Shown: positions 2 through 22,800 of the stretch, one piece after another
How the letters are laid out: every line of letters begins with the position of its first letter
How positions within the stretch are numbered: the stretch's first letter is position 1
Origin: Solirubrobacterales bacterium
Lineage (GTDB): Bacteria > Actinomycetota > Thermoleophilia > Solirubrobacterales > Solirubrobacteraceae
Assembly (NCBI GenBank): GCA_019240115.1
Contig: JAFAYV010000011.1
Location: 62,001 to 126,000 of the forward strand
Reading direction: 5' to 3'
Length of the DNA stretch: 64,000 nucleotides
Program-made: the position numbers and the translations under genes
The notes under the pieces: model-generated
The model's input: only the letters and a program-made list of their open reading frames with translations
Database searches by the model: none
What the model was told of the DNA's origin: nothing

Positions 2-1315
2 GGTGTCCTGACCAGCGAGGGCGGCAAGGCCTCGCACGCCGCGTTGGTGGCGCGGGGGATGGGGCTGCCGGCGGTCGTCGGCGCCCAGGCGCTGGCCATC
101 GATCTCGAGTCAAAGACGGTCAGCGTCAACGGGACCGAGCTCTCCGAGGGCGACGCGATCGCGATCGACGGGACCAAGGGGTTCGTGACCACCGACGACG
201 TCCCCCTCGTCGAGGCTCAGGTCAACGAGAACTTCCAGACGGTGCTGCAGTGGGCCGACGAGCTGCGCCGCATGGAGGTGCGCGCCAACGCCGACAACCC
301 CGATGATGCCCGGCGGGCTCGCGAGCTCGGCGCCCAGGGGATCGGGCTGTGCCGCACCGAGCACATGTTCATAGCCGAGGACCGCCAGCCGAAGATGCGG
401 GCGATGATCATGTCCGACACCCACGAGGCGCGGCGCGAGGCATTGGGCGAGCTGCTCCCGCTCCAGCAGGAGGACTTCGAGGGGATCTTCGAGGCGATGG
501 CCGGCCTGCCGGTGACCGTGCGGCTGCTCGACCCGCCGCTGCACGAGTTCCTGCCCAACGCCGAGGACCTCGCCGCCCAGGTCGAGCGCGCCCGGATCGA
601 GGAGTCCGACGACCTCGAGCGGCTCGAGAAGCTGCTCGCGCGCGTGCACGAGATCGCCGAGGAGAACCCGATGCTCGGGACCCGCGGCTGCCGGCTGGGG
701 ATCCTCTACCCCGAGATCTACGAGATGCAGGTCCGCGCGATCATGCGGGCGGCCAAGGCGGCGTCCGAGCCGCCGCACCTCGAGATCATGATCCCGCTCG
801 TCGACTACGAGCAGGAGCTCGAGATCATCCGCGAGCTGGTGACCAGCATCGGCGAGGACGAGGGGCTGACGGTCGGCGACGACTACACCGTGGGCACGAT
901 GATCGAGCTGCCCCGCGCGTGCTTCGTCGCCGATCGGATCGCCCGCTTCGCCGACTTCTTCTCCTTCGGCACCAACGACCTGACCCAGACCGCGCTCGGG
1001 TTCTCCCGCGACGACGTCGAGTCGGCGTTCGTGCCCACCTACATGGAGCGCAAGATCATCGACCGCAGCCCGTTCGAGACGATCGACAAGCCGGGCGTCG
1101 GCTGGCTCGTGCGGCTCGCCTCCTGGGTGGGGCGCGAGGCCCAGCCGGATCTCAAGCTCGGGATCTGCGGCGAGCATGGCGGCGATCCCGAGTCGGTGGT
1201 CTTCTTTCACCGGGCCGGCCTGGACTACGTCTCCTGCTCGCCCTACCGGGTGCCGATCGCGCGCATCGCGGCCGCTCAGGCCAACGTGGAGTATCCGGTC
1301 GGTCGCTGGGACTGA
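2..1315 (+). CDS. ppdK: Pyruvate, phosphate dikinase, C-terminal part (cut by window start)
   Basis: PPDK interconverts pyruvate + ATP + Pi with PEP + AMP + PPi in the cytosol. The visible part starts in the phosphohistidine swivel domain: TSEGGKASHAALVARG carries the catalytic His at codon 35-37. The C-terminal PEP/pyruvate TIM barrel follows, with the family blocks GIGLCRTEHMF, SFGTNDLTQTALGFSRDD and GICGEHGGDPES (active-site Cys). The N-terminal ATP-grasp domain lies upstream of the window. The residue two before the catalytic His, usually Thr in GGMTSH and the target of PDRP-type regulators, is Ala here. The next gene starts 65 bp downstream, apparently from its own promoter. The family call is secure. 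Confidence 0.97.
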   Translation, partial: GVLTSEGGKASHAALVARGMGLPAVVGAQALAIDLESKTVSVNGTELSEGDAIAIDGTKGFVTTDDVPLVEAQVNENFQTVLQWADELRRMEVRANADNPDDARRARELGAQGIGLCRTEHMFIAEDRQPKMRAMIMSDTHEARREALGELLPLQQEDFEGIFEAMAGLPVTVRLLDPPLHEFLPNAEDLAAQVERARIEESDDLERLEKLLARVHEIAEENPMLGTRGCRLGILYPEIYEMQVRAIMRAAKAASEPPHLEIMIPLVDYEQELEIIRELVTSIGEDEGLTVGDDYTVGTMIELPRACFVADRIARFADFFSFGTNDLTQTALGFSRDDVESAFVPTYMERKIIDRSPFETIDKPGVGWLVRLASWVGREAQPDLKLGICGEHGGDPESVVFFHRAGLDYVSCSPYRVPIARIAAAQANVEYPVGRWD

Positions 1316-8332: not shown

Positions 8333-8974
8333 GTGGCCGACACCGTGCCCGCACCCGAGCCGGAGTCGTCGAAGCCGGTCGAGCCGGTCGAGACCGTCGA
8401 GACCGTCGAGACCGTCGAGACCGTCGAGACCGTCGGGGCCGTCGAGACCGTCGGGGCCGTCGAGACCGTCGAGACGGAGCCGCCTGTGGACGGGGTGGCG
8501 CCGTGGTGGCTGCCGACCAACCCGGGCGGGCTCGTCTACGGCACGATCCTCGTCGCCGCGCTGCTGGCCGCCGAGAACCCGAAGTACGTCAACTATCCGC
8601 GGACCGCCGTCGGGCTGGGGGTGACCCTGTTCGGCTACTGGCTGGCGGTCAGCTACTCGCAGTTCACGGGCCGACGGGCGCGGCGCGGCGAGCCGTTCAA
8701 GCTCGCGGACTTCCGCCGCGCCGCCGCGCACGAGCTCGCCGTGCTCGAGGGCGCGCTCGTGCCCGCCGCGGCGCTGCTCATCTGCTGGGCCGCGGGCGCG
8801 CCGCTGAACACCGGGGTCACCGTGGCGATCTGGACCGCGGTGGGGATGATCGTCCTCACCGAGGTCCTGATCGGCCTCCGCGCGCACCTCACGGGTCCGC
8901 AGCTGATGATTCAGACCGTGCTCGGCGCGCTGCTCGGGGTGCTCGTCCTGATCATGCGGCTGCTCCTGCACTGA
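8333..8974 (+). CDS. Uncharacterised membrane protein with N-terminal VET repeats
   Basis: 213 aa from GTG 8333. Residues 16-48 are eleven imperfect three-residue units (VET, VEP, VGA) encoded by 9-bp tandem repeats, giving an acidic, probably disordered cytoplasmic tail. About four hydrophobic helices follow, roughly residues 65-85, 85-105, 140-165 and 185-210. I recognise no catalytic motif and assign no function. The repeat invites copy-number variation in steps of three residues without frameshift. Confidence 0.65.
   Translation: MADTVPAPEPESSKPVEPVETVETVETVETVETVGAVETVGAVETVETEPPVDGVAPWWLPTNPGGLVYGTILVAALLAAENPKYVNYPRTAVGLGVTLFGYWLAVSYSQFTGRRARRGEPFKLADFRRAAAHELAVLEGALVPAAALLICWAAGAPLNTGVTVAIWTAVGMIVLTEVLIGLRAHLTGPQLMIQTVLGALLGVLVLIMRLLLH
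8378..8476 (+). repeat. Eleven 9-bp tandem units (GTCGAGACC type) inside a gene
   Basis: The in-frame units GTC GAG ACC, with variants GTC GGG GCC and GTC GAG CCG, run without interruption and encode the VET tail of the membrane protein. Confidence 0.95.
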
Positions 8975-12726: not shown

Positions 12727-13464
12727 CTACCGGTCCGCCAGCGTCACCTCCACGCGCCGGGGGTCGGCGCCGCGCAGGACGTCAAGGGCGAGCGCGCCGT
12801 CGGCCATCCGCACCGCGCGCTCGAGGTCCCCGATCGAGCGCACCGGCGACCCGCCGGCGGTGGTGATCAGATCGCCGCGGGTCAGGCCGGCCGTCTGCGC
12901 GGGGCTGTCGCGCTTGACGCGCATGACGAGCACGCCGGGCTCGTCGGCGAGCCCCACGGCCGCGCGCATCCGCTTGGCGACCGCCGCGGTGGCCACCGCG
13001 ACGCCGAGGCGCGGCGCCACCCCCTCGTCGGGCGCAAAGAACGCGAGCCACCCCGCGACCGGCTCGGCGAGCACCCGGGCGCCGTCGCCGGGCACGCCCT
13101 GCAGCAGCCGCCGCGCGCGCTCGAGATAGGCGGGACGCGCCGCCTCCAGCAGCCGCTCGCCGCGCTCGGTCAGCATCACGGTCACGCTGCGCCGGTCCCC
13201 GGCGACCGGCTCACGCTCGATCAGCCACGCGCGCTCGAGCCGCCCGAGGCGGATCGACAGCGTACCGGCGGTACGGCGCAACCGCTCGGCGAGCTCGCGC
13301 TGACCGAGGCGGTGACCGTCGGCGCCCTGCAGCGCGTCGAGCACGAGATAGCTCGGGCGCGACAGCCGGTGCTCGGCGAGCGCCTCCTCGAGCTCGGACT
13401 CGAGATGGGCGGCGACGCTGACGACATCGTCGACGAGCTCGGTGGGAGATGCGGATGAACTCAT
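12727..13464 (-). CDS. MarR-family winged-helix regulator fused to a C-terminal PDZ domain
   Basis: 245 aa. Residues about 10-150 are a MarR fold: the recognition region is GQRELAERLRRTAGTLSIRL and the wing is EREPVAGDRRSVTVMLT. Residues about 155-245 are a PDZ domain: RLGVAVA carboxylate-binding loop, VMRVKRDSPAQTAGLTRGD, then GSPVRSIGDLERAV. MarR proteins are usually about 150 aa and lack PDZ domains. A GGAG Shine-Dalgarno lies 5 nt before ATG 13464. It is divergent from an HtrA-type protease that also carries a PDZ, with only 46 bp between start codons and an operator-like palindrome there. The PDZ probably binds a peptide C-terminus or the protease itself (inference). Confidence 0.88.
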   Translation of the reverse strand: MSSSASPTELVDDVVSVAAHLESELEEALAEHRLSRPSYLVLDALQGADGHRLGQRELAERLRRTAGTLSIRLGRLERAWLIEREPVAGDRRSVTVMLTERGERLLEAARPAYLERARRLLQGVPGDGARVLAEPVAGWLAFFAPDEGVAPRLGVAVATAAVAKRMRAAVGLADEPGVLVMRVKRDSPAQTAGLTRGDLITTAGGSPVRSIGDLERAVRMADGALALDVLRGADPRRVEVTLADR

Positions 13465-13479
13465 TTGTACTCCAAATGT
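13461..13479. promoter_or_regulatory. Palindromic operator-like site between MarR-PDZ and protease genes
   Basis: TCATTTG-TACTC-CAAATGT: two 7-bp arms (6 of 7 matched) around 5 bp. It overlaps the MarR-PDZ start codon and lies about 20 bp upstream of the protease -10 element, a good position for autoregulation and control of the protease. Confidence 0.6.
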
Positions 13480-13498
13480 TTGAGGCGAAAACTTCGTG

Positions 13499-13504
13499 TA
13501 CGAT
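13499..13504 (+). promoter_or_regulatory. -10 hexamer TACGAT of the HtrA-like protease
   Basis: TACGAT ends 6 nt before ATG 13511. It favours this start over the upstream GTG at 13496, which would lie before the transcription start. Confidence 0.55.
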
Positions 13505-13510
13505 CATTGT

Positions 13511-14524
13511 ATGACGAACTCAAACTCGAACGGAACGACGCCGGCTCCGACCTCGCTCCCCGCGCCCGAGCTCGATGCGGCAAGCGACGGGCTCGACGCG
13601 CTCGACGCCTACTCGCGCACCGTGATCTCGGTCGCCGACGCGCTCGGGGACAGCGTCGCCAACCTCCAGGTCCGCCGCCGCACCCGGCGTGGGACCGCGA
13701 CCGGTGCCGGCAGCGGCGTCGCCATCTCCAGCGACGGGTTCATCGTCACGTCGGCGCACGTCATCGAGGGCGCCCGGCGCGGCGTGGCGAGCTTCAGCGA
13801 CGGGCGCGAGACCCAGGTCTCGCTCGTCGGCTCAGACCCGCTGTCCGATCTCGCGGTGCTCCGCGCCGACGGCGGCGAGCTGACCCCAGCGCGGCTCGGC
13901 GACGCCGCGTCGCTGCGCGTGGGACAGCTCGTGGTCGCGATCGGCAACCCGCAGGGCTTCGCCAGTTCGGTGACCGCCGGCGTGGTGTCCGGGCTCGGGC
14001 GCTCACTCCCGGTCGGCTCGCGCGGAGGCCCGCGGCGGCTGGTGGAGAACGTGATCCAGACCGACGCCGCGCTGAACCCCGGCAACTCGGGCGGAGCGCT
14101 CGTCGACGGCGCCGGCGTCGTCGTCGGCATCAACACCGCGCTCGCGGGAGTCGGCCTCGGCCTCGCGGTGCCGATCAACGACGCCACCCACAGCGTCATC
14201 TCGACGCTCATCCGCGAGGGACGCGTGCGCCGCGCGGTGCTCGGCGCCGCCGTCGCGCCGCGGCCGCTGCCGCCCGCGATCGCGCAGCGGCTCGGACGGC
14301 GCGGCGGCGTCGCGCTCATGCAGGTCATCGAGGGCAGCCCGGCGCAGCGCGCGGGGCTCGCGACCGGGGACCTGCTCGTCGAGCTCGACGGCGAGCCGAT
14401 CGCCGACGCGACCGACCTGCAGCGGCTGATGGTCGACGAGCGGATCGGACGCGAGGTCGAGGCGGTCATCGTGCGCGCGGCGCGGCAGCTGACCGTGTCG
14501 GTCGTGCTCGACGAGCTCGCCTGA
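13511..14524 (+). CDS. HtrA/DegP-type serine protease with PDZ domain, no export signal
   Basis: 337 aa. A trypsin-like domain (about 40-225) has the full triad: His83 in VTSAHVIEG, Asp113 in DPLSDLAVL and Ser193 in NPGNSGGAL. One PDZ domain (about 235-330) has VIEGSPAQRAGLATGDLLVE. HtrA proteins are normally membrane-anchored or secreted; the first 40 residues here are polar (Asn/Ser/Thr/Pro/Asp) with no hydrophobic segment, so it should be cytoplasmic. The divergent neighbour is the MarR-PDZ regulator. Together they look like a sensor/protease pair for cytoplasmic misfolded or C-terminally exposed peptides (inference). Confidence 0.92.
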   Translation: MTNSNSNGTTPAPTSLPAPELDAASDGLDALDAYSRTVISVADALGDSVANLQVRRRTRRGTATGAGSGVAISSDGFIVTSAHVIEGARRGVASFSDGRETQVSLVGSDPLSDLAVLRADGGELTPARLGDAASLRVGQLVVAIGNPQGFASSVTAGVVSGLGRSLPVGSRGGPRRLVENVIQTDAALNPGNSGGALVDGAGVVVGINTALAGVGLGLAVPINDATHSVISTLIREGRVRRAVLGAAVAPRPLPPAIAQRLGRRGGVALMQVIEGSPAQRAGLATGDLLVELDGEPIADATDLQRLMVDERIGREVEAVIVRAARQLTVSVVLDELA

Positions 14525-14672
14525 GCGGCCGCCCAGCGGCCTGAGCGCCCGCCCACCGCCTGAAGGCGCCCGCCCACCGGCATGAGGCGCCCGCCCAGCG
14601 GCCTGAGGCGCCCGCCCAGCGGCCTGAGGCGCCCGCCCACCGGCCTGAGGCGCCCCGCCCACCGGGTGGCCC
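14520..14672 (+). repeat. Seven ~21-bp tandem copies carrying the protease stop codon
   Basis: TGA triplets recur at 14522, 14542, 14561, 14583, 14604, 14625 and 14646 inside a CCTGAGGCGCCCGCCCAGCGG-like unit, truncated here for description. The first copy contains the real stop of the protease. It is continuous, so it is not a CRISPR array. Confidence 0.9.
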
Positions 14673-16767: not shown

Positions 16768-18651
<1,884 letters not shown>

Positions 18652-18682
18652 CGGTGGGGGAGCGCGGTGCGGCGCCCCCGGC

Positions 18683-18688
18683 ATCTTA
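18683..18688 (-). promoter_or_regulatory. -10 hexamer TAAGAT of PASTA kinase
   Basis: Good TANNNT match overlapping the first possible ATG (18684), leaving ATG 18651 as the first start inside the transcript. Confidence 0.45.
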
Positions 18689-19855: not shown

Positions 19856-22800
19856 ATGCTGCACGTCCATCGCGCCGCCCGCGCCGATACCCTCGCCGAC
19901 GCGCTCGGCGCGCTGCTGGGCACGCCCGCGCGGGACCCGTTCTGTCCCGAGGTCGTCGCCGTCCCGACGCGGGGCATGGAGCGCTGGCTGACCCAGCGGA
20001 TGTCCGCCGTGCTCGGCGCCGGCGACGGCCGTGCCGACGGGGTGTGCGCCAACGTCCTGTTTCCCAGCCCGCACCGGTTGCTGGGCGACGCGGTGGCGGT
20101 CGCCTCCGGGATCGACCCCGCCGCCGATCCATGGCTGCCCGAGCGCTCGGTGTGGCCCCTGCTCGACGTCGTCTCCGAGACGCTCGGCGAGCCCTGGCTG
20201 GCCGCGCTCGCGCGCTATCTGGGCGCCGATGGGGATGACGGCGACGACCCGGTGCGGGGCTCGCGGCGGCTGAGCACGCTGCGTCACCTCGCCGGCCTGT
20301 TTGACCGCTACGCGCTGCACCGGCCGGCGATGCTCGAGGCCTGGCGCGAGGGACGCGACGTCGACGACCTCGGGGAGTCGCTGCCGGCGGCCGTCGCGTG
20401 GCAGGCGGAGCTGTGGCGGCGGCTGCGCGCGCGCATCGGGATGGCCGGGCCGGCCGAGCGGCGCGAGCGCGCCCAGGCCCGGCTGCGGGCCGAGCCCGAG
20501 CTGCTGGCCATCGGCGAGCGACTGGCGCTGTTCGGGCTGACCCGCCTGCCCACCGGCCACGTGCGGATGCTCGACGGCCTCGCACACGCGCGAGACGTGC
20601 ACCTGTTCCTCCTGCATCCCTCGCCGGCGCTGTGGCGATCGGTCGCGGAGGTCGCGGGGGCGGGGACCGCGCGGGGTGCAGCGGAGACCGGACGGCGTGC
20701 AGCGGAGACCGGGCGGGGTGCAGCGCAGACCGGGCGGCGTGCAGCGCAGACCGGACGGCGTGCAGCGGAGACCAGGCGGCGTGCCGCCGACCCGAGCGCC
20801 CGCCTGGCGCACGGCCGGCTGCTCGCCTCCTGGGGACGCGACGCGCGAGAGATGCAGGCGGTGCTGGCGAGCGCCGACCCCGTGGACCACCCCCACGAGG
20901 ACCCGCCCGGCCCCCCGACGCTGCTCGGCCGCCTCCAGGCCGACGTGCGCGCCAACCGCGCCTGCCCCGGCTCGCCGTTGCCGGGCCGGCCCGATGCGCG
21001 CGCGCCGCTGGCCGACGACGATTGCAGCGTCGAGCTGCACTCCTGCCACGGGCGCCCGCGTCAGGTCGAGGTCCTGCGCGATGCGATCCTGCACGCCCTG
21101 GCGCGCGATCGGACCCTCGAGCCCCGCGACGTGATCGTCATGTGCCCCGACGTCGAGACGTTCGCCCCGCTCGTCCAGGCGACCTTCGGCGCCGGTGAGC
21201 GCTCGGGCGAGGACGAGCTCGCCGCCGCACAGGATGGCCGGATCGATCTCCGGGTGCGCCTCGCCGACCGCTCGCTGCGCCAGACCAACCCGGTGCTCGG
21301 CGTGATCGCGCAGCTGCTGGCGCTCGTCGGATCACGGTTGACCGCGTCCGAGGTGCTCGACCTCGCCGATCGCGGGCCGGTGCGACGGCGCTTCGGCCTC
21401 GACGACGACGACCTCGTGCGCCTGCAGGAGTGGATCGCGCAGGCCGGCATCCGCTGGGGGCTCGACGCTCCCCATCGCGCGCCCTATCAGCTCGAGAGGA
21501 TCGACAGCGGGACCTGGCGGATGGGGTTGGATCGCCTGCTGCTCGGGGTCGCGATGACCGAGGACGAGCAGCGCCTGTTCGCTGGGGTGCTGCCCCTCGA
21601 CGACGTGGACAGCCGCGCGATCGACCTCGCCGGGCGCTTCGCCGAGCTCGTGGCGCGTCTCGGCGACGCGCTCGATGCCCTCGGGGTTGCCCAGACGCTG
21701 CCGCAGTGGGCGGCCGCGATCGCCCGGGCGGCCGACGCGCTGACCGCCACCGGCCCCCGCGAAAGCTGGCAGCGGGCGGAGCTGCAGCGCGTGCTCGACG
21801 AGCTCATCGAGGAGGCGGGCGCCGGCGAGAGGTCCACCGACCCCAAAGTGGCCCCCGAGGAGGTGCGCGCCTATCTCGGCGACCGGCTCGCCGGGCGTCC
21901 GACGCGCGCCAACTTCCGCACCGGGCATCTCACCGTCTGCACGCTCGTGCCGATGCGGTCGGTGCCGCACCGGGTCGTGTGTCTGCTCGGCCTCGACGAC
22001 GGGGCGTTCCCGCGCCGGGCGCCCCGCGACGGCGACGACCTCATGCTCGGGGACCCGCGGATCGGTGAGCGCGACCCCCGCAGCGAGGATCGCCAGCTCC
22101 TGCTCGACGCGCTGATGGCGGCCACCGAACGGCTGATCGTCACCTACACCGGCAACGACGAGCGGACCAACGCGCCCCGCCCGCCGGCGGTCCCGATCGG
22201 CGAGCTGCTCGACACCGTCGACGCGACGGTGCGCTGCGACGACGGACTCGCGCGCGAGCGGATCATCGTCCGCCACCCGCTGCAGCCGTTCGATCCGCGC
22301 AACTTCGCGCCGGGTGAGCTGATCGCCGGGGCGGCCTGGAGCTTCGATCGCTTCAACCTCCAGGGCGCGCGGGCGCTGATCGGTCCGCGGGCGGCGTCGC
22401 GCCCGTTCCTCGCGCGCGCGCTGCCGTGGCGTCCCGGCCCGGTGATCGAGGTCTCCGACCTCGTCGCCTTCGCCGATCATCCGGTGCGCTTCTTCCTGCG
22501 CCGCCGGCTTGGGGTCAGCCTCCGCGGCGGCGCCGACGAGATCGAGGATCGCCTGACCGTCGAGCTCGATCCGCTCGGGCGCTGGGGCGTGGGCCAGCGG
22601 CTGCTCGAGGCGCTGCTGCGCGGCGTCGACGGCCGCACCGCCTCGCTGGCCGAGATCGCGCGCGGGACGCTGCCGCCCGGCGTGCTCGGCTACCCGGTGA
22701 TCAACGAGCTGTTCGTGACCGTCGAGGAGATCGCCCGCGACGTCGCGCGGGTCACCGGCGAGCGGTCCGCTCCCGAGCCGGTCGACGTGCGGGTGGCGAT

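Follow-up and report, generated by a model that had tools for sequence, protein, structure and literature searches.

A MarR–PDZ fusion regulator paired with a cytoplasmic HtrA-type protease in Solirubrobacterales

A 64,000-nucleotide stretch of a Solirubrobacterales genome (assembly GCA_019240115.1, contig JAFAYV010000011.1, positions 62,001–126,000), referred to below as the window, contains a gene for a MarR-family regulator fused to a PDZ domain (MarR-PDZ), divergent from a gene for an HtrA-type protease (HtrA-B). The locus raises the question of whether regulator and protease belong together and, if so, what a PDZ domain does on a DNA-binding protein. The assembly has a size of 4.03 Mb, and its nearest named relatives are Solirubrobacteraceae/Conexibacter metagenome genomes. 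Window and genome have a guanine–cytosine (GC) content of 73%; the third-position GC of both reading frames is 0.93–0.94, which is the coding signature of the genome.

The regulator, the protease and their conserved pairing

The regulator contains MarR and PDZ domains only, according to Pfam. Residues 34–93 match MarR_2 (2.5e-9; 37.6 bits, cut-off 27), with an additional match to the MarR family (29.9 bits, cut-off 24.6), and residues 173–242 match PDZ_2 (1.7e-9, above the curated cut-off). In an AlphaFold2 model built from five native sequences, both halves are folded, mostly with a predicted local distance difference test score (pLDDT) of 80–93, while the linker (residues 134–139) is loose; dimer helices are predicted. 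In structural comparisons, the first half matches the MarR structures AbsC, MarR, MexR, MftR and PecS (Z 16.3 for AbsC in VIA-align), and this match, together with a winged helix scoring above the Pfam cut-off, places the protein in the MarR family. The second half is similar to the PDZ domains of DegQ (Z 14.8, root-mean-square deviation 1.8 over 98 residues) and peptide-bound HtrA2 (2pzd, Z 14.2). Its loop PRLGV aligns with the peptide-binding PDZ domain of HtrA2 (alignment range 152–245), and the PDZ fold with a Phi-G-Phi carboxylate-binding loop is that of an HtrA-type PDZ. A sequence-only reading of the window had proposed this fusion and had made it depend on the C-terminal part folding as a PDZ domain; domain matches and predicted fold agree with it.

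HtrA-B consists of a Trypsin_2 domain (2.3e-30) and a C-terminal PDZ_2 domain (5e-12), and a phmmer search of the PDB relates it to DegP-like proteases (5e-49). The catalytic residues H83, D113 and S193 are present in the expected motifs. This architecture, with its intact His–Asp–Ser triad, is shared with HtrA, DegP, DegQ and HtrA2; however, HtrA-B has neither the signal peptide nor the membrane anchor of typical bacterial envelope HtrA proteins. No membrane segment was found, the highest 19-residue hydropathy in the first 60 residues being 0.69, whereas an HtrA from this genome that does have an anchor reaches 2.44. HtrA-B is thus an HtrA by domain composition, but not a typical envelope HtrA. 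Both the intact triad and the lack of a signal peptide or transmembrane helix had been recognised in the sequence-only reading. The AlphaFold2 model of HtrA-B (pLDDT 45.7) was too poor to use.

A search of 232 genomes of the order Solirubrobacterales yielded clear orthologs of the fusion (58–61% identity) in four genomes besides that of the window, designated G148, G150, G186 and G138; the G138 gene is split over two contigs, and a further piece, ended by its contig, occurs in G137. At every locus with readable context except one, all in Solirubrobacteraceae relatives, the fusion adjoins HtrA-B. In G148 and G150, both genes are on one strand, with HtrA-B immediately following the fusion, whose stop codon overlaps the HtrA-B start by one base in G150; in G186 the two genes are divergent, as in the window. 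The remaining neighbours differ: a putative cyclase and a class-III aminotransferase in the window, an ExoD-type protein in G186. Since adjacency is kept in both orientations with otherwise different neighbours, the pairing is not due to chance. The sequence-only reading would have been refuted had homologues of the fusion never adjoined an HtrA gene, and on this point, too, it holds. Full-length MarR-PDZ proteins were not found outside the class Thermoleophilia in 396 genomes drawn evenly across the phylum, and a pattern-based scan of 84,980 species found no full-length fusion outside Solirubrobacterales; matches in the Methylobacterium group span one domain only.

Table 1. Features of the MarR-PDZ/HtrA-B locus, with positions in the window.
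Feature	Position	Strand	Basis or remarks
MarR-PDZ fusion regulator, 245 amino acids	12727..13464	minus	Pfam, AlphaFold2, Foldseek/VIA-align, orthologs
Regulator domains by residue: MarR winged helix ~7–122; flexible linker ~134–140; PDZ ~152–245; carboxylate-binding loop RLGV 152–155			
Palindrome CATTTGTACTCCAAATG, 6-bp arms and 5-bp spacer, candidate operator	13462..13478		Spans regulator start codon and ribosome-binding site
Intergenic region, 46 bp, AT-rich, presumed shared promoter/operator	13465..13510		Sequence
Possible further site with a weaker fit to the shared motif, minus-strand sequence TTTCGCCTCAAA; tentative	13479..13490		Between palindrome and protease start
Cytoplasmic HtrA-B, 337 amino acids, ATG start; trypsin-like protease and one PDZ	13511..14524	plus	Pfam, PDB phmmer, triad, hydropathy

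Seven copies of a 21-bp unit follow htrA-B directly (14518–14665). The window is rich in such short tandem repeats, with units in multiples of 3 (9, 21 and 33 bp), both intergenic and in-frame, as in a protein kinase gene; others are located at 8378–8475, 17690–17789 and 20660–20784. Downstream of the aminotransferase gene, a serine/threonine protein kinase with PASTA domains is encoded at 16768–18684, beside genes for a response regulator and a Crp-type regulator.

A PDZ type shared with HtrA-A

In many other Thermoleophilia genomes, HtrA-B is preceded in tandem by a gene for HtrA-A, which also has trypsin and PDZ domains. The PDZ domain of the regulator is 41–53% identical to that of HtrA-A, and in a tree the fusion PDZs group with the HtrA-A PDZs, separately from those of HtrA-B (98/98). 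A divergent gene for an HxlR-family repressor lies beside HtrA-A in all 28 loci with enough upstream sequence, and HtrA-B follows HtrA-A in 25 of 30. The resulting cassette of divergent HxlR repressor, HtrA-A and HtrA-B, all apparently cytoplasmic, is conserved in Thermoleophilia (for example, L045:6098–7487). At three loci from genomes of the window's genus, nusG and the genes for ribosomal proteins L11, L1 and L10, as named from sequence, follow closely downstream of it. A repressor, this PDZ type and HtrA-B therefore recur jointly, either encoded by three separate genes or, where the repressor is fused to the PDZ, by two. Since the same parts occur separate or fused, gene-fusion logic suggests that repressor and PDZ carrier are functionally linked.

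At least one catalytic residue is lost in 8 of the 29 readable HtrA-A rows (7 distinct genes, several families), compared with none of 33 for HtrA-B. Selection thus maintains catalysis in HtrA-B and, in HtrA-A, something else, which is most simply the PDZ domain. Formation of HtrA-A pseudoproteases that keep their PDZ domain is recurrent, with changes such as GSAGG, GAGGG and His to Arg observed among seven loci.

A survey centred on HtrA-B found it in 52 of the 232 genomes, at 53 distinct loci. Of these, 32 have HtrA-A and 4 have MarR-PDZ as a partner, 15 have neither, 1 has HxlR alone and 1 is at a contig end. In the HtrA-B tree, proteins linked to MarR-PDZ group together (100/99) and fall outside the clade that unites those linked to HtrA-A (98/96). 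HtrA-B appears to have been joined on separate occasions to two different carriers of one PDZ type.

The MarR-PDZ architecture has a second branch, comprising 15 more distant genes (33–39% identity) with a longer N-terminus. They occur in the window's genus, in other members of its family and order, and in a further Thermoleophilia family. The same gene, of the DJ-1/PfpI family (PF01965), adjoins 11 of these 15 loci, sometimes with a gene for an F420-dependent oxidoreductase, and HtrA adjoins none. In four second-branch genomes, 78–100% complete, only distant HtrA proteins and no HtrA-B ortholog were found. DUF899 genes adjoin members of both branches. MarR-PDZ may have arisen in one fusion event or in two: the MarR halves of the two branches fall on one side of a branch with a support of only 48/77, and the PDZ halves need at least two changes.

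The intergenic region and a recurring motif

The 46-bp gap between the two genes had been measured correctly in the sequence-only reading; the 80 bp upstream of the regulator have a GC content of 46%, compared with 73% for the genome. The palindrome over the regulator start that had been read from the sequence is real, but its arms, CATTTG and CAAATG around the spacer TACTC, have 6 bp (13462–13478), instead of the 7 bp assigned to them at 13461–13479. It has no other exact copy in the window or genome, and its spacer contains the probable Shine–Dalgarno sequence of the regulator, GGAG. A −10 element that had been assigned to the protease was not confirmed; a sigma-70 promoter scan of the region found no consensus.

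A short palindromic motif is found repeatedly ahead of regulator genes in both MarR-PDZ branches, for example as TTAGTTTGAGATCAAACTAA, TTGCTTGGACTCAAGCAA and GCTTCGACCGAAGC, and as CATTTGGAGTACAAATG at the locus described here, where 13479–13490 may be a second site. Of 18 fusions, 15 carry the pattern YTTSN3-5SAAR in the 80 bp ahead of the gene, compared with 0.79 expected from shuffled sequences; of 527 control genes, 19 carry it.

Readings of the locus and known systems

According to the reading preferred here, which is tentative and falls a little short of an even chance, MarR-PDZ is an autoregulated repressor freed when peptide ends bind its PDZ domain, raising the level of cytoplasmic HtrA-B. 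The locus would then constitute a two-gene damage-response unit. The domain, the motif and the gene arrangement suggest that the MarR half would bind the palindromic operator or operators of the gap as a dimer, repressing both its own gene and divergent htrA-B. The PDZ half, of a type otherwise carried by HtrA-A, would serve as the sensor: its groove would be occupied by peptides or free C-termini from cytoplasmic proteins that have been damaged or partly digested, the MarR half would leave the DNA, and HtrA-B would rise until the peptides were cleared. The commoner layout holds the same parts as separate genes, namely the divergent HxlR repressor, HtrA-A, which carries the PDZ domain but has often lost catalytic residues, and HtrA-B. 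Domains and fold, conserved adjacency, the shared PDZ type, the recurring motif and the HxlR/HtrA-A/HtrA-B counterpart underlie this reading. If it is correct, the regulator is a transcription repressor with an HtrA-type PDZ sensor, a single protein turning protein damage into transcription with no membrane relay. A role would also be provided for the cytoplasmic HtrA pairs of Thermoleophilia, one member of which keeps losing catalytic residues. Rather doubtful is a wider proposal: one damage-reading PDZ type would be shared by the catalytically decaying HtrA-A proteins and the MarR-PDZ repressors, the sensor of the protease being joined directly to DNA binding in Thermoleophilia; in the three-gene version, HxlR and the partner that carries the PDZ domain would then likewise act as a single sensing complex.

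Several observations weigh against the repressor reading. The fusion of G138 adjoins a DUF899 gene upstream and a different gene downstream, and HtrA-B was not found in that assembly, which is 65% complete. The link in the same-strand orthologs can be explained by co-transcription without any sensing. The supposition that every HtrA-B has a partner with a PDZ of the HtrA-A type is false; with none at 15 of 53 loci, such a partner is not required. In-place replacement of HtrA-A by MarR-PDZ was considered and dropped, because the position of fusion-linked HtrA-B outside the HtrA-A-linked clade indicates no simple replacement within a lineage. As for the motif, the pattern was picked after the sequences had been viewed, the fusion sequences are mutually related, and the palindromes taken by themselves carry little weight (combined p 0.04 over all); for the first two reasons, the motif is support for, and not proof of, autoregulation of MarR-PDZ.

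Three other explanations of the locus can be considered. In a docking or feedback arrangement resembling CtsR–Clp loops, the PDZ domain of the regulator would bind HtrA-B, or HtrA-B would cleave the regulator, and the idle or busy state of the protease would set repressor activity. Adjacency kept across genera, the single clade of fusion-linked HtrA-B and the fact that HtrA-B is usually accompanied in genomes by HtrA-A, which carries the same PDZ type, are consistent with docking, which is nevertheless unlikely: no partner-specific C-terminal tag was seen, the ending ‘-EL’ of HtrA-B occurring also in partnerless HtrA-B, and the second MarR-PDZ branch lies beside DJ-1/PfpI, partly in genomes in which no HtrA-B ortholog was found. 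This second branch, above all, makes a sensor role of the PDZ domain more probable than docking to HtrA-B. The suggestion, made from the sequence, that the regulator PDZ is a partner of the protease is weakened by the same observations; the companion suggestion, of one peptide signal common to regulator and protease, is supported in altered form: the link between the genes has proved conserved, but the PDZ of the regulator is of the type found on HtrA-A, usually encoded upstream of HtrA-B, and not that of its neighbour.

The regulator might instead sense a small molecule or an electrophile in its MarR pocket, with the PDZ domain merely dimerising or tethering and HtrA-B as one output. Here the closest solved MarR relatives, of the ligand-responsive PecS, MftR and AbsC types, and the DJ-1/PfpI and F420-dependent oxidoreductase genes beside the second branch, typical of chemical stress, point in its favour. 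A mere tether, however, need not keep the PDZ fold and the carboxylate-binding loop, which are retained in both branches, and such sensing is about as improbable as docking. It is least probable, and by any measure a slight chance, that the regulator controls only itself, the protease being constitutive and the link reflecting shared ancestry of four related loci. The linked HtrA-B genes do fall into a single clade, which would fit a single origin of the pairing, and the palindrome covers the start of the regulator and not that of the protease; yet at about 60% identity the two genes are still together although their orientation and every other neighbour have changed.

A survey of 7,852 microbial PDZ proteins tied PDZ domains to proteases and stress response and distinguished twelve families (Htr, Ctp, RseP, APN, Lon, GspC, FeSo, SpoIVB, AP, ComP, ChaN and ZEP), with no MarR-PDZ among them and ‘MarR’ absent from its main text (PMC6411480). 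By its domain partners, the regulator fits none of the twelve. In searches of the open-access literature, with subscription papers and current annotation databases outside their range, neither MarR-PDZ regulators nor the HxlR/HtrA-A/HtrA-B cassette were found described, and nothing relevant turned up on MarR with PDZ and HtrA or on HxlR with HtrA; in the sequence-only reading, too, MarR-PDZ was not known from any described system.

Like regulators of the PecS, MftR and AbsC types, MarR-PDZ has a MarR winged helix, long flanking helices and a palindromic site, here a candidate, by its own promoter; unlike it, the known members of these types lack a PDZ domain and respond to small molecules. In CtsR–Clp loops, a repressor is encoded beside protein quality control protease genes, as MarR-PDZ is beside HtrA-B, but CtsR falls outside the MarR family and lacks a PDZ domain, and Clp is ATP-dependent. 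In the DegS/RseA/sigma-E system, a PDZ domain reads C-terminal peptides and switches on a protease-based stress response; it is located on a membrane-anchored periplasmic protease that cleaves an anti-sigma factor, with proteolysis relaying the signal across the membrane. The proposed reading of peptide ends by a PDZ domain would be common to both, whereas here HtrA-B lacks an anchor and the PDZ domain in question is carried by a predicted DNA-binding protein, putatively a cytoplasmic repressor.
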